A stretch of 64,000 bases of DNA from Mesotoga prima MesG1.Ag.4.2 (GTDB lineage Bacteria > Thermotogota > Thermotogae > Petrotogales > Kosmotogaceae). The position numbers and the translations under genes were made by a program. The stretch lies in NCBI RefSeq assembly GCF_000147715.2, contig NC_017934.1:372001-436000 (forward strand). The letters run 5' to 3'. Under the pieces are notes generated by a model that saw only the letters and a list, made by a program, of their open reading frames with translations, made no database searches and was not told the DNA's origin. This document shows, piece by piece, positions 4,273-14,563 of the stretch (positions are counted from its first letter, which is position 1; the number at the start of each line of letters is the position of its first letter).

Positions 4273-5366
4273 ATGTTATTGATCCTCCTGTATAGATCCA
4301 TGAAGAACTCTTTGTCGAAATTACCTGGAGTCTTCTTCAGGTGCGATGCTTTTGAAGTGTAATCTGACCATTCGTTTATTTCTTCATCTGAGATTCTCAA
4401 GGAGATTCGTCCAGAGATAAACCTCTGTATAAAAATCTGGAGTTCATCGAGACTCTCAAAAGGATCGATTGCAGCACTTATTCTATCTTTGTCGGCCTCC
4501 GCAATCTTCTTGAAGATCTCGACCAGAATTAGAGCATTTGCCATACCGTGTTTTACATTCTTGAATGAAGAGAGTGGATAACCAGCTGCATGAACTGCAG
4601 TTGTTCCCGTATGAGCGATTACTATTCCGGCGAGTGTTGCGGCAAACTGCATCCTTTCACGCAAATCAATATCATCCTCATCCAGCAGTATTCTGTCGAG
4701 CGAATCTTTAATGAGCCTGTTTGCTTCTCTTGAAAGAGTTTTTAGCAGGGGATTTTGTCCCTTGTTAACTACTTCGCCTTCCAAAGAATGGGATAATGCG
4801 TCAAGTGCGGTAGCAATGGTTACATCTAAAGGCATTGTCACAGTGTATCTCGGATCGAGAAAGGATATCGCTGGAAAGATCGATGGCATCCCAAAGCCTT
4901 TTTTCTGTCCATCGGCATTTGTAAGAACCGAGTACTGAGTAACTTCACTACCCGTACCCGAGGTAGTAGGTATGGCGACTATTGGGTGAGACGGAAGGTT
5001 CTTTCCTCTGTATAGGTCCTCGCAACTGCATCCGTTCATTCCGACTGCAGAGATCGCTTTACCTGCATCGAGAGGGCTTCCTCCGCCAATTGCGATTACA
5101 AAATCACATTCATTTTCTGAAAGAAGCCTTCCTCCTTTTTCGACTGTAAAGAATGAAGGATTCTCTTCTACCTCATCGAATATTGAACTCGGAATATCTA
5201 AAGCTTCTAGCATCCTTAGTACTTCGTCGAGTGCTCCGCTTTTCTTTGCTGAGGATTTTCCAGTAACTATGAACGCTTTTGTGCCGAATTCCTTAAGCAA
5301 CTCACCGTTTTGGCCGATTACTTGTCTACCTGCAAAGACCCTTGTCGGCAAGAAATATTTCCACAT
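4269..5366 (-). CDS. Iron-containing alcohol dehydrogenase family protein
   Basis: A 365-residue group III (Fe-ADH) dehydrogenase. IAIGGGSPLDAGKAI near 90-104 is the NAD(P)-binding glycine-rich signature and TTSGTGSEVTQYSVLT near 133-148 follows it. Metal ligands are visible as DALSH (Asp and His), VHAAGYPL and KHGMANA, so the metal site is complete. The substrate cannot be read from sequence; butanol-, lactaldehyde- and propanediol-type enzymes all share these motifs. It lies 4 bp after csaB and overlaps rlmI by 4 bp, so the three genes form a transcription unit without an obvious shared pathway. Confidence 0.88.
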   Translation of the reverse strand: MWKYFLPTRVFAGRQVIGQNGELLKEFGTKAFIVTGKSSAKKSGALDEVLRMLEALDIPSSIFDEVEENPSFFTVEKGGRLLSENECDFVIAIGGGSPLDAGKAISAVGMNGCSCEDLYRGKNLPSHPIVAIPTTSGTGSEVTQYSVLTNADGQKKGFGMPSIFPAISFLDPRYTVTMPLDVTIATALDALSHSLEGEVVNKGQNPLLKTLSREANRLIKDSLDRILLDEDDIDLRERMQFAATLAGIVIAHTGTTAVHAAGYPLSSFKNVKHGMANALILVEIFKKIAEADKDRISAAIDPFESLDELQIFIQRFISGRISLRISDEEINEWSDYTSKASHLKKTPGNFDKEFFMDLYRRINNI

Positions 5367-5370
5367 TCAA

Positions 5371-6462
5371 TCACCTTCTTGCTAGGAGTTTCTTGAGCAA
5401 CTCTTTTGATTCATTCACCGTGTTTTCAAGACGAGACCAGTAGTCTTCCTTAAGATTCACCGGCTTATTCAAAGAACTGTTGATTGATAGGCTCAAGCTC
5501 TCGCAACTTTCTTCAAAATAGAGATTGCAGTTTTTGTCCAGAGACCTCACAAATCTATCAAGCTTAGTATTCTTCTTCCACACGAAAGGAACGCCCAATG
5601 AGATCGCCAGAATCACTCCATGAAGACGCTCTGTGATTATTAACTCTGCATTGTTAAAAACCTCAATCATTCCCTCAAGATTCTCTGGAGGTTTTCTTAC
5701 TTTGAATCCGTTTGAACGCGCCTTGGATTCAAGTTCGCTTCTCTTTTGCTCATCGTGGTGATTATGAAACCCTACGGCGCAAACTTGTGATAGATTATTC
5801 AATCTGAGAGAATGGAGTACATCGTCTACACTGGTTCCGTTTTTCAGAACTATTACCGCTAAGCCAGCAATCGTTTCACGCTTCTCGGGTATTATCCTTT
5901 TTTTTCGAAGGTAGTACGGTCCATAGTCTGTTCCGAGGATTGCTTTATTCGATATTGATGCAAAATGTTTGTAACTTACGGCGTCTCTCATGACTCCGTA
6001 AGTAAGCGGATCACTGAGCAACTTGTTCAGTGCCTTCCTGTTTGCGGTTTTACTTAATGGGCCAAACCCTTGGGAAAGAAAGAGCAGGGGTTTGTCTTTC
6101 TTGAGAGTGTACTTTGCAATCTCGTAATAGTACAAAAAACTCCTCCAGCTTGTCTGATCCTGAAGGAGATTTCCCCCTCCAAATACGGTTAGAATCGAGT
6201 TCTTGATGGAGGTTTGGAGCTCTCTTATGCTGAAGCGCTTAATTATCCTTACATCCAGTTTTGACGGAAATCTGTGGGCTATGTGGTTTATGCTCGGTGA
6301 GGCGGGCAGATAAATCGGTCCTTCAAATTCTATCTCTTCGATCAGGGATAGTGATGAAAGCAACAGAAGATCGTCGCCAAGGTTATCATATCCATAGTAA
6401 CCCACCAGCGTCAGCCCGCCAAAAGAAAACTGTCTCACCTCAAAACCTCCAGGAACATTCAA
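5371..6462 (-). CDS. csaB: Polysaccharide pyruvyl transferase, CsaB family
   Basis: A 363-residue protein starting GGLTLVGYYGYDNLGDDLLL near residues 14-33, the G-Y-Y-G-x-x-N-x-G-D-(D/E) signature of CsaB-type pyruvyl transferases, with a C-terminal T-E-R-L-H-G-V-I-L-A near 280-289. CsaB adds ketal-linked pyruvate from phosphoenolpyruvate to a cell-envelope polysaccharide, in several bacteria the anchor for SLH-domain proteins. Thermotogota carry an outer sheath, so a role in sheath anchoring is plausible but inferred. The gene diverges from comEC across a 74-bp gap. Confidence 0.85.
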   Translation of the reverse strand: MNVPGGFEVRQFSFGGLTLVGYYGYDNLGDDLLLLSSLSLIEEIEFEGPIYLPASPSINHIAHRFPSKLDVRIIKRFSIRELQTSIKNSILTVFGGGNLLQDQTSWRSFLYYYEIAKYTLKKDKPLLFLSQGFGPLSKTANRKALNKLLSDPLTYGVMRDAVSYKHFASISNKAILGTDYGPYYLRKKRIIPEKRETIAGLAVIVLKNGTSVDDVLHSLRLNNLSQVCAVGFHNHHDEQKRSELESKARSNGFKVRKPPENLEGMIEVFNNAELIITERLHGVILAISLGVPFVWKKNTKLDRFVRSLDKNCNLYFEESCESLSLSINSSLNKPVNLKEDYWSRLENTVNESKELLKKLLARR

Positions 6463-6480
6463 CGCTAATATTCTAACACA

Positions 6481-6507
6481 TGTGAATCATCGAACACGTT
6501 GTTCACA
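6481..6507. promoter_or_regulatory. Palindromic element between csaB and comEC
   Basis: The 74-bp divergent gap holds two nested inverted repeats: TGTGAA (6481-6486) with TTCACA (6502-6507), and inside it GAACA-CGT-TGTTC (6492-6504). Such dyad symmetry in a divergent gap fits a regulator-binding site, but it matches no operator I can name. The spacing differs from the GAAC-N4-GTTC LexA box of Firmicutes and from the six-base spacer of Rex sites. Confidence 0.35.
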
Positions 6508-6536
6508 AAGCACTGCAAGGGATGTAGAATCTAGTT

Positions 6537-7898
6537 ATGCACGATGCGCTCCGGCGAAGAAGTACACCTTTTCCTTTTTTGTTCTATCTTCTGGCGACCA
6601 TGCTGGGAGAGCTAATCATATTTTCTTCAATCTGGATGGATAGCGGTTGGCTTTCTTTAGCCCTTCTCGCGCTTTCCGTAATGCTTATCTCTTCGAAACA
6701 AGTCAGCCCGTTTGCCTGGGTCTTGTTCTTTGTGATGGGCTGCCTTGTACAAACCTTCACTTTGAAAATGCTCGATCCTGGAAAAGTTGAGTATGTCGGC
6801 TATGTTTCGAAAGGTGGAACGGGAAGGATCGAAGCAAGTAATGGTAGACTTCTCCGGGATGGCGAATGGATTTATCTTCCCTCGGCCGTAAATATCGATT
6901 TGTCAGACAGAAAAGCCGTTGCCTTTCCCGGGCAGATCGTGTGGTCTGCTGGCAGGCTTAAGAGGAGCGACACGTATCCTTTGTTGACAATCGAATCGGA
7001 AGTAGAAGGCTGCATTGATAGGTTTGAGATAATCTCTCTTCCCGGGAAACATATTGCTGGTCTGCTTTCAAAATACGAACTTGACAATACCATTGCCGCT
7101 GCAGTCTTTACTGGTGACAGAAAGCACATAGAATATGAATTGAGGAGAACGATATCTGATCTTGGAATCGCCCATTTGTTCGCTGTTTCAGGCTTGCATG
7201 TAGGACTGATGTATCTTCTAGTTCACAGCGCACTTTCTTTCCTAATGGTCGGAAGGAATTCCAGAATAATAGCTTCGATTTCTCTGCTTTTCTTATACAC
7301 ATTGTCTACAGGACCTGCTATCTCCGCCTTGAGAACATTTCTCATGCTTTTATGCTATTCGATATTCAGGATTATCGATTATCGTCAGCATCCACTGAAT
7401 ATCCTTGGACTTTCTGGAATGATAATTGTAATGGTTCAACCATCAATTGTTGCATCGATCTCATTTCAGCTGAGCTTCTTTGCTACGGCTGCGCTGCTGA
7501 TATTCCTGCCAGGAATCGAAAAGAAGAGCCTTATATACCAAGCTTTTCTAGTTGGTGCAATTGCCCAGGCGGCAATTGTTCCTCTTTCTTTGACCGCATT
7601 TGGTACGTTGTCTCTTGTCGGAATTCCTTTGACTATTCTAATGGTTCCGATGTTCGTAATGCCGTCTTACATAGGGATGATAGCCATATTGGTATCAGAT
7701 TTTCTGGGAATCGAAGTGGTAAGTTCCTTTATTTCGGGAAGCCTCAGAACAATGTCGAACATAATGGGAAAGGTTACAGCATCTATCGGAGAAGCGATTC
7801 CGGCAATGCGATTCGAAGCCTTCCCGGCTTATTTTATTTCGTTGCTTGTACTTTTCTTGTCTTTCATTGCATTCTGGCATTTAGGGCACAAGCCGTAA
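6537..7898 (+). CDS. comEC: ComEC/Rec2-family competence membrane protein, short form
   Basis: A 453-residue multi-pass membrane protein. Residues about 1-150 contain two membrane segments and an OB-like beta region. From about 180 the competence domain is recognised by G-I-A-H-L-F-A-V-S-G-L-H-V-G-L and G-P-A-I-S-A-L-R-T-F. ComEC forms the inner-membrane channel for single-stranded DNA during natural transformation. This copy ends after the membrane domain and lacks the C-terminal metallo-beta-lactamase-like domain of longer ComEC proteins. The ATG has no good ribosome-binding site within 10 nt, so the exact start is uncertain. The last 70 bp overlap the convergent fur gene. Confidence 0.85.
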   Translation: MHDALRRRSTPFPFLFYLLATMLGELIIFSSIWMDSGWLSLALLALSVMLISSKQVSPFAWVLFFVMGCLVQTFTLKMLDPGKVEYVGYVSKGGTGRIEASNGRLLRDGEWIYLPSAVNIDLSDRKAVAFPGQIVWSAGRLKRSDTYPLLTIESEVEGCIDRFEIISLPGKHIAGLLSKYELDNTIAAAVFTGDRKHIEYELRRTISDLGIAHLFAVSGLHVGLMYLLVHSALSFLMVGRNSRIIASISLLFLYTLSTGPAISALRTFLMLLCYSIFRIIDYRQHPLNILGLSGMIIVMVQPSIVASISFQLSFFATAALLIFLPGIEKKSLIYQAFLVGAIAQAAIVPLSLTAFGTLSLVGIPLTILMVPMFVMPSYIGMIAILVSDFLGIEVVSSFISGSLRTMSNIMGKVTASIGEAIPAMRFEAFPAYFISLLVLFLSFIAFWHLGHKP

Positions 7899-8296
7899 AA
7901 TTTCAGTTGATGGTCCTCTATGGTGTAACCGGTCCTCGACTTCACAAGCTCTTCAAGTTCTTCGAGGTTATCAAGATGAAATTCGACGACGGCACCACAA
8001 TTGCTGCAAATTACGTGATGATGGTGGTGCTCACCCTTTTCAACGAGTTCATACCTCACTACTCCATCTTCAAAAACGATCTTTCTGAGAAGCCTTATAT
8101 CGGCGAGTAGCTCAATCGTCCTGTAAACGGTTGCCTTGCTTATTCTGAAGTTCTTCCCCTGAACCTTATGGTAGATCTCATCCGCACTCAAGTGCTCTGT
8201 GCCAGCTTCAAGGAAAAGTCTTAGAATTAATTCCCTTTGAGCCGTCATTCTTTGATTTCTTTTTTTCAGTTCTGCCTTGAGCTGATCATTTCTCAT
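7829..8296 (-). CDS. fur: Fur-family metal/peroxide-responsive repressor
   Basis: A 155-residue Fur-family regulator. An N-terminal winged helix (about 15-80, with F-R-I-S-K-A-T-V-Y-R-T-I as recognition helix) is followed by the metal and dimerisation domain with GEHHHHHVICSNC and a second pair C-P-K-C near the end. This fits structural zinc held by two CxxC pairs plus a regulatory His-rich site. Whether it is Fur, PerR or Zur cannot be decided. The start chosen is ATG 8294-8296, placed 5 nt after GGAGG; an in-frame TTG lies 12 nt further upstream. The C-terminal 23 codons, including the second CxxC, overlap comEC on the opposite strand. Confidence 0.85.
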   Translation of the reverse strand: MRNDQLKAELKKRNQRMTAQRELILRLFLEAGTEHLSADEIYHKVQGKNFRISKATVYRTIELLADIRLLRKIVFEDGVVRYELVEKGEHHHHHVICSNCGAVVEFHLDNLEELEELVKSRTGYTIEDHQLKFYGLCPKCQNAMKDKKSTSNEIK

Positions 8297-8306
8297 GACA
8301 GCCTCC

Positions 8307-8337
8307 AAAAAGCCGAACTACGTTACATAATCGGCTT
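8307..8337 (-). terminator. Hairpin-plus-U-tract between nusA and fur
   Basis: On the minus strand AAGCCGA (8337-8331) pairs with TCGGCTT (8316-8310), followed by a run of U ending just before GGAGG of fur. The loop contains the nusA stop codon and the 5' arm lies inside the last nusA codons. It fits an intrinsic terminator that partly separates nusA from fur. The 7-bp stem and 14-nt loop are modest, so read-through is likely. Confidence 0.45.
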
Positions 8338-9351
8338 AATGTCTATCTTCCAGCCAGTCAACTTTGCGGCAAGTCTTGCATTTTGGCCACCTTTTCCTAT
8401 TGCTAGGGAAAGTTGAGTTGGCGAGACAAAGACGGTGGCCTCGTGGTTTTCGATATTTGCAACCTTCACTTCAAGAGCTGAAGCAGGTGCGATTGAGTTT
8501 CCAACAAACTCCGCAGGATTGTCGCTCCACCTTAATATATCAACTTTTTCGGGTTTTATCTCCCTGAGGACTTCGGCTATTCTTGTCCCGCTTTCTCCAA
8601 TGCAAGCCCCTACAGGATCGACTTTTGTGTTCTGACTGAATACGGCTACCTTAGTACGAATACCCTCTTCTCTGGCTATGGCCTTTACGGTTACGTCACC
8701 ACTTGCTATTTCTGGAACCTGAAGTTTCAAGAGTTCTATAACGAAGTCCGGGGTTCGTCTTGTAACGAGTAAGCGAGGTCCTCTAACAGATTTTGTGACA
8801 TCGACAACGTAGACTTTCATAAGTGAATTCAGTCTTGGCTGTTCCCCGGGAATGAGTTCCTTAGTTGGGATCCTCGTTTCGAGTTTCCCTATCCTCAAAT
8901 CGATCCACTCGTCAGTGACTCTAAGAACCTCAGAAGTTGTCACCGTTCCCTTCATATCGACGTACTTATCAAAGAGGTTCTCTTTTTCTTTTTCACGTAT
9001 CTTTTGAATAAGAACCTGTCGAGCCGTTTGAGCGGCGATCCTCTTGAATTTCTTAATGTTGAGTTTTCTCTCAACTGTTGAGCCAATCTCCGCCGAAGAA
9101 TCGAGTTTTAAAGCTTCTTCCAGCTTGACTTCTAAAGAGGGGTTTTCCACAGCCTCGACCACCAGTAGTTTTTCAAAGACTTCTATGTCGCCTGTAAGCC
9201 TGTCGATCCTGACATCGACATCGCTCTCGGACGCGAAGTTTTTCTTATAAGCACTCTGGAGAGCTTTTTCCAGTATGTCTATAACCTCTTCCTTTTCTAT
9301 ATTCTTCTCATCTTGCAGTTGATCAAGGGCTTCCAAGAGATTGAGATTCAT
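8323..9351 (-). CDS. nusA: Transcription termination/antitermination factor NusA
   Basis: A 342-residue NusA: N-terminal RNA polymerase-binding domain (about 1-125), S1 domain (about 130-200, F-D-K-Y-V-D-M-K-G-T-V onward), and two KH domains carrying G-E-S-G-T-R-I and G-K-G-G-Q-N-A-R-L. This is the short, core form, without the acidic C-terminal repeats of E. coli NusA. NusA modulates pausing and stimulates intrinsic termination. It lies 21 bp after rimP in the order conserved across bacteria, but infB does not follow; fur does. Confidence 0.96.
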   Translation of the reverse strand: MNLNLLEALDQLQDEKNIEKEEVIDILEKALQSAYKKNFASESDVDVRIDRLTGDIEVFEKLLVVEAVENPSLEVKLEEALKLDSSAEIGSTVERKLNIKKFKRIAAQTARQVLIQKIREKEKENLFDKYVDMKGTVTTSEVLRVTDEWIDLRIGKLETRIPTKELIPGEQPRLNSLMKVYVVDVTKSVRGPRLLVTRRTPDFVIELLKLQVPEIASGDVTVKAIAREEGIRTKVAVFSQNTKVDPVGACIGESGTRIAEVLREIKPEKVDILRWSDNPAEFVGNSIAPASALEVKVANIENHEATVFVSPTQLSLAIGKGGQNARLAAKLTGWKIDIKPIM

Positions 9352-9372
9352 GTGAACACCTCACCGTCCAAA

Positions 9373-9831
9373 TTATAGTTTTAAGTTTGCGCGCTTAACA
9401 TTTGAAAAGTGGAATGCTATCTCTTTACCGTTCTCGGAACTCTCAACAGTGACAACGTCGTTTTCGCATGAGATGATCTTCCCAATCAAAACCGAAACCC
9501 CTTCAATGGGTTCCTTGAGAATCACCTTTGCCTTCTCACCTGTGAATCTTACGTAATCCTTCAAATCCCTTAGAGCGCGTTCCAGTCCGGGAGACTCTAC
9601 AACAAGATCGTAAGAAAATGGGACGAGGTCCGCTGAATCAAGCGCTCTACCAAAATCGGCCGAGAATGATTCACAGTCGCTTATAGAAACATATCCATCG
9701 AGCTTATCGATCGTGATCTTAACAAGTCTTTTCTTACCTCTTCTTCCTAGCCCGAGATCATAGATCGAATAGCCCAGGTTGCTTGCGACTTCATTTGCCA
9801 GCTCGAAAAGCTCTTTCTTCAGGTCCTCCAC
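9373..9831 (-). CDS. rimP: Ribosome maturation factor RimP
   Basis: A RimP protein of about 152 residues when started at GTG 9829-9831, which has GGTGGTG about 6 nt upstream. The family pattern V-E-S-P-G-L-E-R-A-L...F-T-G-E-K-A-K-V is present near the middle, and the C-terminal SH3-like domain follows. RimP assists 30S subunit maturation. The frame stays open upstream to 9933, but that extension runs through a promoter and a terminator hairpin and is not coding. ATG 9844-9846 directly after the U tract is an alternative start. Confidence 0.9.
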   Translation of the reverse strand: MEDLKKELFELANEVASNLGYSIYDLGLGRRGKKRLVKITIDKLDGYVSISDCESFSADFGRALDSADLVPFSYDLVVESPGLERALRDLKDYVRFTGEKAKVILKEPIEGVSVLIGKIISCENDVVTVESSENGKEIAFHFSNVKRANLKL

Positions 9832-9846
9832 AAACAACACCACCAT

Positions 9847-9888
9847 AATAAAAAATAGAGGGCAAAACAAGCCCTCTCCCTTTGGGAG
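9847..9888 (-). terminator. Leader terminator/attenuator before rimP-nusA
   Basis: On the minus strand a 7-bp stem AGAGGGC/GCCCTCT (9877-9871 and 9863-9857) with a 7-nt loop is followed by ATTTTTTATT (9856-9847), a canonical intrinsic terminator. It lies downstream of a near-consensus promoter and upstream of rimP, so it sits in the rimP-nusA leader RNA. A second hairpin, CTCCC-AAA-GGGAG (9888-9876), overlaps the terminator's 5' arm by two bases and could compete with it. Confidence 0.75.
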
Positions 9889-9904
9889 TATTTCAACTAC
9901 AATC

Positions 9905-9933
9905 ATTATAACTCTTTTGACTCGGTCAGTCAA
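9905..9933 (-). promoter_or_regulatory. Sigma-A promoter for rimP-nusA
   Basis: On the minus strand TTGACT (9933-9928), a 17-bp spacer and a perfect TATAAT (9910-9905). This is the best promoter match in the window. The predicted transcript starts around 9898 and gives a leader of about 65 nt containing the terminator hairpin before rimP. Confidence 0.85.
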
Positions 9934-9946
9934 CGTTAACCGTGAT

Positions 9947-11083
9947 TTAGTCTGCTAGCGAGATGTCCTCCCTAGATGCGACAAACCCGGTTAGGATTAT
10001 TATTGCGATTGCTATCAGAAGATTAATTGCAGTGGGCAAAACGACCATGGGAAAAGTGAAGTCAAGCATTGATATTCCCTGGAGTACGACAAGGAGGGAG
10101 GTGGTTGGGAGACTTCGACTGAACGATTCGAGCCAATCGGGGAACATTGAATGAGGTATCAGAATTCCGCTCAGAATCAATACCGCTGTGACAAGCGTTA
10201 TTGACGTTAATTGAGCACTCCTTGAAGAATTCAGTATTGTCCCTATGAGAAGTCCTATAGATGTAAACAGGAGAATGTAGACTTCTAACACCACCACATA
10301 AAGAATCAGATTCGACGCAATTTCAAGCCCAAACAATCTTCCGGCCGTAATGAAGATCAAAACCTGCGCAGTTGAAAAAATCAAAAAACTGACCGTCTTG
10401 GCAATTATATATTTCACTGATCCCACATCTGATAGTCGGAGAAGATCTATCACACCGTTCCTTCTGTCTTCATAGATACCCGTAGCAGCTCCTATTGATG
10501 TTATGAACATAATCGTTGTAACCAGAACTATAGGAAAGAGAAGTGAAGAGAAGCTTAGCTTAGACTCGGAGATACCTTCAACTGTGAGAGAGGGCGCTAC
10601 GTAGTTCGGGTCGATCTCCACGGTCTTCATGAATTCGGGATCTGCTACAACCGGAAGGGCTTTGAACTCTCTCAGAACATTGCTCAAAACCTGATAGACG
10701 GCAACTGCAGTTTGCATTGATCCTGGGTTTGGAATGAAAACCAGTTCAGAGGGTTCCTGAAAGAGAAGCTTGTTCGCAAATCCTCTGGGAATTATGAAGA
10801 CCCCGTCGAGTTTGTCGATCACCGAGTCTATCTCCTCTCTGTTCGATAGCTGAAGTATGTTCTCTCCTTTCAGCATAGAGGTCGCGTACTGCACAAAAAA
10901 GAGACCTATGAAAGTCTTGTCTTCATTTATTATTCCTATTCTTAGGTCGGAATAACCTCCCGTTTCGGAGGTTATAGAAGATATGGCCGCCAAAATAACT
11001 GGCAAAAGGATAAGCACAAAAAGAAAAGCCCTCGATTTAACTATTAGAAGAAGATCGTTCTTAACAAGTCTAAGGAATCTCAA
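9947..11083 (-). CDS. ABC-2 type transporter permease
   Basis: A 378-residue membrane protein with the ABC-2 permease plan: one N-terminal membrane helix (about 18-36), a large extracytoplasmic region (about 40-180, with N-E-D-K-T-F near 55), then five or six helices in the C-terminal half, with Y-E-D-R-R-N-G-V near 205. Such permeases form exporters of drugs, lipids or glycans with a separate ATPase. No ATPase partner is adjacent; the nearest upstream gene is divergent. The start is TTG 11081-11083, with GAGAGGGAC upstream. Confidence 0.85.
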   Translation of the reverse strand: MRFLRLVKNDLLLIVKSRAFLFVLILLPVILAAISSITSETGGYSDLRIGIINEDKTFIGLFFVQYATSMLKGENILQLSNREEIDSVIDKLDGVFIIPRGFANKLLFQEPSELVFIPNPGSMQTAVAVYQVLSNVLREFKALPVVADPEFMKTVEIDPNYVAPSLTVEGISESKLSFSSLLFPIVLVTTIMFITSIGAATGIYEDRRNGVIDLLRLSDVGSVKYIIAKTVSFLIFSTAQVLIFITAGRLFGLEIASNLILYVVVLEVYILLFTSIGLLIGTILNSSRSAQLTSITLVTAVLILSGILIPHSMFPDWLESFSRSLPTTSLLVVLQGISMLDFTFPMVVLPTAINLLIAIAIIILTGFVASREDISLAD

Positions 11084-11328
11084 GTAACGTCCCTCTCTTC
11101 ACTATTGACTTTCTGTGATTATCTATAGAGCCTTTTTTTATTATACTCTATCAATAAATACAAAATGTCAACGCCGTCTTCAAGTAGGATCTGCGGCTGT
11201 TGCTCTTCTTGAGAAAGAACCGTTATCGTTGTTGTGCTTGTTTAAGCGGTCAGATGGTAGAATCGCAATAAGAACTGTTCCTTTGGTTTTTTCGTCAAAT
11301 TTCAGAGTACGATCTTGGAGGTGAATAA

Positions 11329-12663
11329 ATGAGGAGATTTATGGTACTTGCACTCCTGGTTATTGGAGCTTTATCAGTTGCAAGCGTCGGCACTATGTCG
11401 GGACGTCTTCCAGCTCAATCGCATACGGTACTAATAGTTGAAGATCTAGAAAACAATTACAACGTTTCCAAAAAAGCCGTTCTCATGGATATGGTATTGA
11501 ATCAGCTTGCCATAGAGCAACTGATAGCGCAGTACGTCGAAATGTTGGCTTACAATAATGGCCTAGATCCGAAAGACATATATAAGGCTTTTGATGGAGA
11601 TCTCGGACTTGCTGTCTGGGTAGATTCAGAAGGTACGGATCGTCTTGTAATTGTACTTGGACCAACTGAGAATCCAAAGGCGTTGAAGGCGGCTATCGAA
11701 AAGATACTTCCGCAGCTTCTACCCTCAGAGATTGAACTAAATATCGCCGTTGATCAGGAGTACCTCTTCATTGGTGATATTGAGCAGTATGCAGTTACAG
11801 AAAAGGGATTTAATCTTTCTCTGGTCACTGAAGGTCTAACGCCTGGGTTTGCTTACTTCTACTCTTCGGTGGGAGATGTTGTTCAGAAGGGTTCGTTGTG
11901 GAATGAGGAGGGGATTCTGATTGCTGAGGCTCTTTCGGTCCCCCTTTCTGAAGAGACCAGAGAGAGGTTCTCTTCCGCACTTGAAGGTGCTTCGGTGGTT
12001 GAACTGGAAGCCGGTTACCACCTTCCGCTCGTCTCCGGCTTTGCAAAGATAAATGATCTTTCTTTTCTCTCAGACCTAAATATCGAACAGCTCGGACTTC
12101 TTCCTTTAGAGTTGGGAGAACTCAAAATAGGCACTCAGGATATCACAGAGTTTTCCGAAGAGATGACGGGAGAAATCATGGTAGATGCCAACATCTCAGT
12201 TGACGATATATTCGCAAGTCTCATGGGCTCTGAGGGAACTACTTCAGGAGCAACAGACTCGGTAGGATATTCCTATGTCCTGAGAGCAGGCTACAGTGGA
12301 ACCTTAGATGATCTTAAATTTCGCCTTGAAAAAGCCGATCCGGATCTCAAGATTCTCGTCATTGAGAATGGTTTATCTATAGAAGATCAGTATATTTGGG
12401 TTAGCGACGGGTGGCTTTACGTTTCTTCAAGTAACCAGGTGAAGATCACGAAAGAACTTCAGGAAGGCGCGATAGTATCTGATCTAGAAGTTTATAATGA
12501 GCTGTTGAAGTTCTCTGGTTCTGAAGGTTTTGCCAGGCTTTTTTTGGATTCCGGTTACATACTTACTGGATTAATGGGAGTGGAAATAGAGAGTGGTGTT
12601 CTAGTGAACAGCCAGTATGTAAGAGAGATAGGTGGTATTAGAAGCACAATTGTGATCAAGTAA
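11329..12663 (+). CDS. Predicted secreted protein of unknown function (DUF3352-like)
   Basis: A 444-residue protein with an N-terminal signal peptide (FMVLALLVIGALSVASVGT) and no later membrane segment, so probably periplasmic or outer-membrane associated. The body alternates D-G-D-L-G-L-A-V-W-V and V-L-G-P-T-E-N-P-K-A-L-K-type segments, reminiscent of DUF3352-like proteins that repeat beta-alpha units, but this is a weak resemblance. GGAGGTG lies 8 nt before the ATG. It stands alone between a divergent permease gene and rqcP. I do not recognise a function. Confidence 0.8.
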   Translation: MRRFMVLALLVIGALSVASVGTMSGRLPAQSHTVLIVEDLENNYNVSKKAVLMDMVLNQLAIEQLIAQYVEMLAYNNGLDPKDIYKAFDGDLGLAVWVDSEGTDRLVIVLGPTENPKALKAAIEKILPQLLPSEIELNIAVDQEYLFIGDIEQYAVTEKGFNLSLVTEGLTPGFAYFYSSVGDVVQKGSLWNEEGILIAEALSVPLSEETRERFSSALEGASVVELEAGYHLPLVSGFAKINDLSFLSDLNIEQLGLLPLELGELKIGTQDITEFSEEMTGEIMVDANISVDDIFASLMGSEGTTSGATDSVGYSYVLRAGYSGTLDDLKFRLEKADPDLKILVIENGLSIEDQYIWVSDGWLYVSSSNQVKITKELQEGAIVSDLEVYNELLKFSGSEGFARLFLDSGYILTGLMGVEIESGVLVNSQYVREIGGIRSTIVIK

Positions 12664-12700
12664 AAAAAGAAGCCCCTGCGCCAAGCGGAGTGACGGGGGC
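12662..12700 (-). terminator. Intrinsic terminator on the minus strand after birA, beyond rqcP
   Basis: Reading the minus strand, GCCCC (12700-12696) pairs with GGGGC (12676-12672) with further pairing inside (CGC-TTG-GCG), followed by TTCTTTTTTT (12671-12662). On the plus strand no T-run follows, so the signal points leftward. The only minus-strand genes that feed into it are panB-birA, whose transcript would first cross the whole of rqcP in antisense. Confidence 0.65.
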
Positions 12701-12773
12701 AAGAACATCTCGATAACATAATTATACCTATTTTCTTATCGTTAGTCAAGTGTATACTCATGGGAGATCAGTT

Positions 12774-13013
12774 TTGCGCATCGACAAATTCTTGAAAATG
12801 AACGGAATTATCAAACGAAGAGTAGTAGCCAAGCAGGCAATTGAAAAGGGCTACGTATTCAGAAACAAGATCAGAGCAAAGCCTTCTTCGGAAGTTGAGC
12901 CCGGAGATCTTGTTTCAGTAAGATTTTTCAACAGAGTACTTGTAGTAAGAGTAAAAGAGGGATTCGAGTCAGAGATCGTGGAGGAAACTAGAGTAGAATC
13001 TCCCCGGAGTTGA
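12774..13013 (+). CDS. rqcP: S4-domain RNA-binding protein RqcP
   Basis: An S4-domain protein of 79 residues from TTG 12774, which follows GGGAGA by 6 nt; a GTG at 12750 would add eight residues. The sequence begins R-I-D-K-F-L-K-M-N-G-I-I-K-R-R and matches RqcP (YabO/Hsp15-like), with Arg2 and Arg16, needed for tRNA and 23S rRNA contact in Bacillus RqcP, both present. RqcP works with RqcH to add alanine tails to nascent chains on obstructed 50S subunits; rqcH is also in this window at 57.5-59.2 kb. Its 3' end overlaps birA by 26 bp. Confidence 0.88.
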   Translation: MRIDKFLKMNGIIKRRVVAKQAIEKGYVFRNKIRAKPSSEVEPGDLVSVRFFNRVLVVRVKEGFESEIVEETRVESPRS

Positions 13014-13791
13014 TCTCGAGGATCACTCCGTCTTCTCTTTCAAGGCATAAAGATGAGGGAGTGATGCTATTAATTATACCAGTGATTTTTTCACCATTGG
13101 GTAGGGATACAGTTATTTCATCTTTTTCCGCAAAAGCTAGATATTTTTTCCATCTGCGTGTTAGATATCTGTTTTTCCCTCGAATTAGATAGTTTTTTCG
13201 AAGGAACTCTACTCTCTTAAGAACTTTATCGAGAAGCATTTCCAGTGATATGTGTTTGTTAATAACCATTCCCAGACTTATGGCGATCTGCCTAATCTCT
13301 TCAGGGAGTTCGTTGTTTACATTTATCCCGACGCCTACCACAATAGCGTTTACCGATATCCCCGAGAAGATCGCTTCGGTCAAAATACCTGCCACTTTCC
13401 TTTTTCCAATGAGCACGTCGTTTGGCCACTTTATGCCAACTGAATTAATACCCATCTTGATCATCGTTTCTGCGACAGCTACCGAAACTACTTTTGTGTA
13501 CTCATTGGGTTCCCTTATCAACGACGGTTTGAAGACTATAGAGAACCACAATCCGCCCTTATTGGAGTACCAGAAACTATTGTGCCTTCCATAACCCGAA
13601 GTTTGCGAGAGAGCCCAGACGACGGTTCCGGAGGGAAGTTTGTCCAGGTTATTCTTGGCGTACACATTTGTTGAGTCTATTTCGGAGAATGATACAATGT
13701 TTTCGCCTACCATCATGGTCGGGATTTCATCCTCAAAATCCGAGTGAATCTGGCGAAAAACGTCAAATCTCCTCTGTCCCTTCAAAAGCAT
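12988..13791 (-). CDS. birA: Biotin--[acetyl-CoA-carboxylase] ligase, monofunctional
   Basis: A 267-residue biotin protein ligase. The catalytic signature G-Y-G-R-H-N-S-F-W near 83-91 stands for the family G-R-G-R-x-x-R-x-W and K-W-P-N-D-V near 140 binds biotin. There is no N-terminal helix-turn-helix, so it is a group I enzyme that modifies biotin carboxyl carrier protein but does not repress transcription. A short SH3-like C-terminal domain is present. It overlaps panB by 29 bp at its start and rqcP by 26 bp at its end. Confidence 0.9.
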   Translation of the reverse strand: MLLKGQRRFDVFRQIHSDFEDEIPTMMVGENIVSFSEIDSTNVYAKNNLDKLPSGTVVWALSQTSGYGRHNSFWYSNKGGLWFSIVFKPSLIREPNEYTKVVSVAVAETMIKMGINSVGIKWPNDVLIGKRKVAGILTEAIFSGISVNAIVVGVGINVNNELPEEIRQIAISLGMVINKHISLEMLLDKVLKRVEFLRKNYLIRGKNRYLTRRWKKYLAFAEKDEITVSLPNGEKITGIINSITPSSLCLEREDGVILEINSGEILL

Positions 13792-14563
13792 TTTTCTCCT
13801 CGGGAAAGACGCCAGACTTCACCTCTTCATCAAATCTTCGAAGTGCTGATATGATATTGGATTTAAGATCGGCAAATCTCTTAATGTATCTTGGACTAGA
13901 TTCGTCGTTGATGCCAAGTAGATCATGCCATCGAAGAAACTGCCCGTCACAATATCGACCAGAACCCAGACCAATTGTGGGGACAGAACTATCTTCCGTA
14001 AGCCTTTTCGCTACATCTTCGACAACCATTTCAAGAAGTATTGCAAAGACGCCCGCCTCCTCTAATTCGTTGACAGACTCAATTAGTCTCTTTATGCTTT
14101 TTTCGTCTCTTCCCTGTACAGGATATTCTCCGACCAAACTGGCGTGATGTGGAGTTATCCCGATATGACCCATTACAGGAAAACCACTATCAACCAAATG
14201 TTTTATAAGGTTTGCAGTCTCGAAACCGCCTTCGATTTTGACAGCGCTGGCTCCATGTCTCAAAAAGGAGACCACGTTTTCAACGGCTTTTTCCCTGGAA
14301 CATTGATAAGAGCCAAAGGGCATATCGGCAACTATAAAACTATTTTCCGCTCCCCTTCTGACTGACTTTAAGGACCATATCATTTCGTCCATTGTTACCG
14401 AGAGAGTATCCCTTTTCCCCATCACAAGCGTTCCGAGAGAATCCCCTACTATGATCATGTCCAGTCCTGCCTCTTCAGCAAACTTCGCTTCAAAATAGCT
14501 GTAAGCAGAGATCACAGACAGTTTACTTTGACCCTTCATTTGGACGATTTCTCTCACATTCAT
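13763..14563 (-). CDS. panB: 3-methyl-2-oxobutanoate hydroxymethyltransferase
   Basis: A 266-residue PanB. The motifs I-V-G-D-S-L-G-T-L-V-M-G near 38-49, A-D-M-P-F-G-S-Y near 80-87 and A-V-K-I-E-G-G near 110 carry the Mg-binding Asp residues and ketopantoate pocket. PanB transfers a hydroxymethyl group from 5,10-methylene-tetrahydrofolate to 2-oxoisovalerate, the first committed step of pantothenate and CoA synthesis. panC and panD are not nearby. A TATAAT on the minus strand at 14659-14654 may be its -10 element. The downstream birA is coupled by overlap. Confidence 0.95.
   Translation of the reverse strand: MNVREIVQMKGQSKLSVISAYSYFEAKFAEEAGLDMIIVGDSLGTLVMGKRDTLSVTMDEMIWSLKSVRRGAENSFIVADMPFGSYQCSREKAVENVVSFLRHGASAVKIEGGFETANLIKHLVDSGFPVMGHIGITPHHASLVGEYPVQGRDEKSIKRLIESVNELEEAGVFAILLEMVVEDVAKRLTEDSSVPTIGLGSGRYCDGQFLRWHDLLGINDESSPRYIKRFADLKSNIISALRRFDEEVKSGVFPEEKNAFEGTEEI

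Follow-up and report, generated by a model that had tools for sequence, protein, structure and literature searches.

The rimP-leader was the most ubiquitous attenuator in the survey of Naville & Gautheret 2010 (PMC2965389), where it is described as a GGGc...gCCC stem and U-stretch lying 4-130 nt before rimP, without an antiterminator and with NusA as the best candidate regulator. In Bacillus subtilis, according to a passage of PMC12288461 that refers to its ref. 34, NusA autoregulates through NusA-stimulated termination in its own leader; the initial annotation of the locus studied here had pointed out that nusA operons elsewhere are feedback-regulated in this way, and the B. subtilis case agrees.

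In this paper, we focus on one leader, the short stretch ahead of rimP-nusA in Mesotoga prima: is it an attenuator of the kind already known, and which of its parts, if any, are its own? We argue that the first reading of the locus (a promoter and two hairpins that attenuate rimP-nusA) is largely supported but describes a known kind, and that one of the hairpins, which we call P1, is an apparently new part, a Kosmotogaceae variant of the rimP leader that appears undescribed in the literature searched.

Results

Anatomy of the leader

The window is the whole stretch of DNA that was analysed, 64,000 nucleotides long, and all positions refer to it unless a contig is named (Table 1). Read along the minus strand, the leader begins with the promoter that had been annotated, TTGACT-17-TATAAT (9933-9905), which recurs in Kosmotogaceae; it continues through GATTGTAGTTGAAATA to the 5' arm of P1 and passes from P1 into the terminator hairpin, the two sharing A9877-G9876 (the last 2 nt of P1, within the terminator 5' arm), just as first described. 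P1 has no U-tract of its own, and ATTATGGTGGTGTTGTTT lies between the T-tract and the GTG at 9831. The order of promoter, hairpins and rimP had been read correctly; the spacing had not, P1 starting 16 nt (rather than about 20) downstream of the -10, and the start of rimP is most likely this GTG, which is ATG in three congeners and is preceded by a Shine-Dalgarno sequence at 9844-9838.

Table 1. Features of the rimP-nusA leader and of the genes that follow it
Feature	Position	Strand	Basis and remarks
-35 hexamer TTGACT	9928-9933	-	sequence and family comparison
-10 hexamer TATAAT	9905-9910	-	sequence and family comparison; spacer to -35 of 17 nt
Predicted transcription start	9898-9900	-	5-7 nt past the -10
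P1 hairpin CUCCC-AAA-GGGAG, 5 bp, triloop	9876-9888	-	fold, scan, 17/17 Kosmotogaceae
Intrinsic terminator hairpin AGAGGGC-UUGUUUU-GCCCUCU	9857-9877	-	scan, fold, conservation; rimP-leader motif GGGc...gCCC
A + U6 tract	9850-9856	-	U6 = 9855-9850; invariant within genus
Predicted leader 3' ends	about 9850-9848	-	from the U-tract
Probable Shine-Dalgarno GGUGGUG	9838-9844	-	sequence; invariant within genus
rimP, GTG start, 152 aa	9373-9831	-	ORF and profiles (RimP_N, RimP C-terminal SH3)
nusA, 342 aa	8323-9351	-	ORF and TIGR01953, 388.9 bits, above cut-off (NusA equivalog)

The leader up to the terminator is ~50 nt long, and the ~25 nt from there to rimP, holding as they do a Shine-Dalgarno sequence, leave no room for a second promoter. 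With the sole possible promoter upstream of the hairpins, each rimP-nusA transcript from that promoter crosses the terminator. As in the B. subtilis case, nusA lies 3' of the terminator, on the same strand and in the same operon as rimP; a Fur-family gene comes directly after it, so that the three stand in a row (7829-9831). The end of the Fur-family gene overlaps a convergent ORF (6537-7898) that is ComEC-like by inspection. By the definition of the rimP-leader, too, the fit is close: the stem ends at 9857 and the GTG is at 9831, AGAGGGC...GCCCUCU is followed by A and UUUUUU, and the leader has neither a large conserved aptamer nor a clear antiterminator.

Consensus scans alone are weak evidence for either element, the excess over shuffles not being clear (16 promoter-like sites vs 13.8+-4.1, and 10 terminator-like sites vs 7.3+-2.9). 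The rimP-leader terminator ranks first in the terminator list, the pair of hairpins (38 nt) is more stable when folded than shuffled versions of it (z -2.8) and, in the 9 kb scanned (5000-14000), two promoters match at 11/12 positions, that of rimP and one other. The other, again TTGACT-17-TATAAT, is at 12749-12721 on the minus strand, near 12.7 kb. We hold the observation to be real because it is conserved, in ten genomes of the genus and 17 of the family, and not because of the scans.

Conservation across Thermotogota

RimP was present in 94 of the 103 Thermotogota genomes searched, and the DNA upstream of each was inspected. Promoter and terminator precede rimP in 17/17 Kosmotogaceae genomes examined, and in every one GGGC follows the promoter at a distance of about 25-40 nt; by eye the promoter reads TTGACT-17-TATAAT in 16 of the 17 and TTGAAT-16-TATAAT in the last (the 19-nt spacer that an automated pattern gave in two g2 genomes was an artefact of greedy matching to a wrong -10). 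Within the genus, stems and U-tract are unchanged across ten genomes in which loops, promoter spacer and rimP synonymous sites vary, and CTCCCA.AGGGAGAGGGCTT and GCCCTCTATTTTTTATT stand out as invariant blocks; conservation of the hairpin in related genomes, the check that had been proposed for it, is thus plainly there.

Beyond the family, a GGGC...GCCC or equivalent hairpin is found in nearly all Thermotogota rimP leaders (n=50 for GGGC...GCCC in the phylum), with degenerate or different forms in G031, G061 and G048. Families f3, f10 and f11 have tRNA-Ser(GGA) and then ACCGGGAC...GUCCCGGUUUUU ahead of rimP, the tRNA having been checked at six loci and being visible by reading in the rest. 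At loci of these families (L056, L073, L058, L077, L080, L046 and others) the terminator after the tRNA reads ACCGGGAC...GTCCCGGTTTTT, an arrangement that parallels metY-rimP-nusA of Escherichia coli and a motif that differs from GGGC...GCCC. Family f5 (L041, L043, L023, L033, L089, L084, L035) has only 13-14 nt from -10 to GGGC, so that its leader is essentially the terminator hairpin alone, a minimal version with no space for P1. At L085 and L068 (family f4), a different hairpin, GAAAC.../...GUUUC, overlaps the terminator 5' arm by about 4 nt and is possibly an independent competing hairpin. By itself, the GGGC...GCCC motif does not single out rimP, for the M. prima genome holds four further AGGGC...GCCCT hairpins with T-runs (C1:258155, 2132687, 2206057, 2969456).

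The upstream hairpin

When every leader was scanned uniformly for a hairpin adjoining the terminator 5' arm, P1 was found in 17/17 Kosmotogaceae at score 9, a score reached in 0.1-1.5% of mononucleotide-shuffled upstream sequences; no hairpin equal to it was found by the same scan in the 33 other Thermotogota GGGC-type leaders. In all 17 the loop is 3 nt and the last base of the 3' arm immediately precedes the A that flanks GGGC; anchored on the triloop, the stem numbers 5-6 pairs throughout, each of them standard or G-U. P1 and the terminator share 2 nt in 16 of the 17 genomes and 1 nt in G013. Genus g3 has the stem CCUCUU-NNN-AAGAGG or CCUCU-UAU-GGAGG where the others have CUCCC-NNN-GGGAG, and at four of the five stem positions the replacements stay paired or preserve a wobble. 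Selection on the structure of P1 is thus likely, if not overwhelmingly so, the covariation coming largely from that one genus and from few independent events. The exact P1-plus-terminator pattern occurs once in the genome; in a species-level collection, the two-hairpin pattern hit 46 contigs, in 7 of which it precedes rimP (all Kosmotogaceae-type, their titles naming Kosmotogaceae, Kosmotogales, Thermotogales or Mesotoga), and none of the remaining hits is next to rimP. Other Thermotogota families have the terminator without P1, and P1 is therefore dispensable for the basic function.

Could the two hairpins exclude each other, as had been suggested? In a weak form they could, two base pairs being contested; full exclusion does not hold. 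Alone, P1 has -6.8 kcal/mol and the terminator -13.3 kcal/mol, and together the registers P1(3 bp)+T(7 bp), P1(4)+T(6) and P1(5)+T(5) come to -16.0, -15.7 and -15.2 kcal/mol, within 0.8 kcal/mol of one another and still close at 50-60 C, where the basal A-U pair of the terminator is formed only about half of the time. In other words, P1 leaves the terminator able to form and disputes only its two basal pairs, and the effect, given registers so nearly isoenergetic, may be small. A classical terminator/antiterminator switch, for which extensive overlap is expected, is ruled out by the 2-nt overlap together with these energies; P1 more likely would make the terminator marginal and factor-dependent. 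In a B. subtilis terminator, a hairpin-to-3'-end distance longer by 2 nt abolished termination (PMC8060035), so a contest over two basal pairs could matter. We also considered whether the loop of the terminator carries a consensus pause signal (G-11 G-10 ... Y-1 G+1), which fits here and fails in g3 and in the short-loop families; the GGGC-loop-GCCC motif itself dictates the positions that match.

Discussion

That the leader is a transcription attenuator of rimP-nusA, as originally proposed, we consider highly probable; conservation, independence of the upstream gene and membership in the rimP-leader family all support it well, and from its sequence termination would be expected here in vivo. 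RNA polymerase would start near 9899, transcribe a leader of ~50 nt, and either stop at the GGGC/GCCC terminator (giving a short RNA that ends near 9850) or read on into rimP-nusA. Abundant NusA—a product of this very operon and a factor that acts on hairpins at the RNA exit channel—would most likely raise termination and so complete a negative feedback. P1 would fold first, abutting the terminator and competing for its two basal pairs, and would probably keep the terminator marginal, its efficiency being left for a factor to set. As a whole, this combination of attenuator, NusA feedback and tuning by P1 is probably the best explanation. As for its parts, we think the odds lean modestly toward NusA as the effector, by analogy with B. 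subtilis, and the conservation of P1 hints that it might be a functional tuning element, a role to which we give somewhat less than an even chance. More tentative still is the suggestion that Kosmotogaceae evolved a two-hairpin attenuator in which P1 acts as a 2-bp clamp, or as a hairpin on which NusA docks, and makes termination dependent on NusA; if true, this would be an attenuator pared down to a minimum, tuned by a protein and lacking an antiterminator.

To which gene does the terminator belong? An ABC permease on the same strand ends at 9947, and no terminator separates its end from the rimP promoter, so that read-through from it would meet the hairpin, and one might suppose that the hairpin is simply the 3' end of an ABC-transporter operon that lies before rimP by chance. 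The gene ahead of the leader is a co-oriented ABC-2 permease in M. prima, in most of its congeners and also in g2 and g5; however, the nearest upstream ORF is divergent in G012 and G004 and unrelated in G011 and G015, and the leader is the same in all four, which argues that it belongs to rimP-nusA. Synteny, with the promoter found upstream of the hairpin in every Kosmotogaceae leader, largely refutes that supposition, which we regard as hardly credible, and the hairpin may in addition stop transcripts that read through from upstream.

If the leader does serve rimP-nusA, it might still sense nothing, its hairpin being a constitutive partial terminator that sets a low level of expression without feedback. 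A leader of ~50 nt with no visible classical antiterminator or aptamer, no Rfam match and a competition over 2 bp is what one would then expect; yet the hairpin sequence itself is strongly conserved beyond its pairing, and NusA feedback has been proposed for such leaders (PMC2965389) and has, in the passage of PMC12288461 cited above, a direct precedent at the corresponding locus of B. subtilis, all of which makes mere constitutive termination improbable. Another factor could be sensed instead (RimP, NusG, Rho or a pausing state), with the structurally conserved P1 as a possible binding site or pause hairpin: RimP feedback was raised as a hypothesis in PMC2965389, and at weak terminators of B. 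subtilis NusG and NusA act together (PMC8060035). But other Thermotogota have the same terminator without P1, so a general sensor cannot require it, and NusA is the only effector for which experimental support at the rimP-nusA operon has been reported; we think a different factor more improbable still. P1 might, alternatively, act on translation, its 5' arm serving as an anti-Shine-Dalgarno that represses rimP in read-through transcripts, for when the long leader is folded, the CUCCC region comes to pair with GGUGGUGUU, and the Shine-Dalgarno of G011, UAAGAGGU, has a complement in ACCUCUUA. In g2, g4 and g5 that pairing is weak or missing, in two genomes of g3 it is limited to 5 bp, and the long fold has a z of -0.33; we have rejected this role, since the pairing is not kept across genera, and consider it very unlikely. 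A leader that attenuates rimP-nusA, probably under the influence of NusA, is the reading we keep.

What is gained is the extension of a known, little-tested attenuator to a deep-branching phylum, in which termination before rimP-nusA has been kept across Thermotogota despite changing sequences and changing upstream genes. The compact Kosmotogaceae leader (about 50 nt, two abutting hairpins) would, moreover, be a good minimal substrate for studying how NusA acts on a terminator hairpin.

Comparison with Known Systems

Like the rimP-leader (PMC2965389), the Mesotoga element is a short stem with a U-stretch in the 5' UTR of rimP-nusA, near the start codon; unlike it, it precedes an operon without infB (which lies ~1.2 Mb away, C1:1604459-1606213), and an extra hairpin abuts the terminator. 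Thermotogota are absent from the main text of that paper. The Rfam family RF01770 (rimP) has the same gene context; neither a search of the genome with it nor a search of the locus against Rfam gave a match at the leader, at its gathering score of 47 bits or even at E<=10, so the RF01770 covariance model does not cover the Mesotoga leader. Like the NusA leader of B. subtilis, ours places a terminator whose basal stem context is suboptimal before an operon that encodes a termination factor; that of B. subtilis measures ~180 nt (PMC2965389) against ~50 nt to the terminator here, and dependence on NusA here would be by analogy. There is a resemblance, too, to the tandem rimP-leader of Gammaproteobacteria (PMC2965389 Fig. 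2a), in which a C-rich/G-rich hairpin is likewise followed by a G-rich/C-rich one. In the E. coli leader (L157), a CCCCG...CGGGG terminator is followed some 25-35 nt on by GGGCUUUAGGCCCUUUUUUU; that upstream hairpin has its own U-tract, as has the second, lies ~25-35 nt upstream and comes after tRNA metY, whereas P1 has no U-tract and overlaps its terminator by 2 nt.
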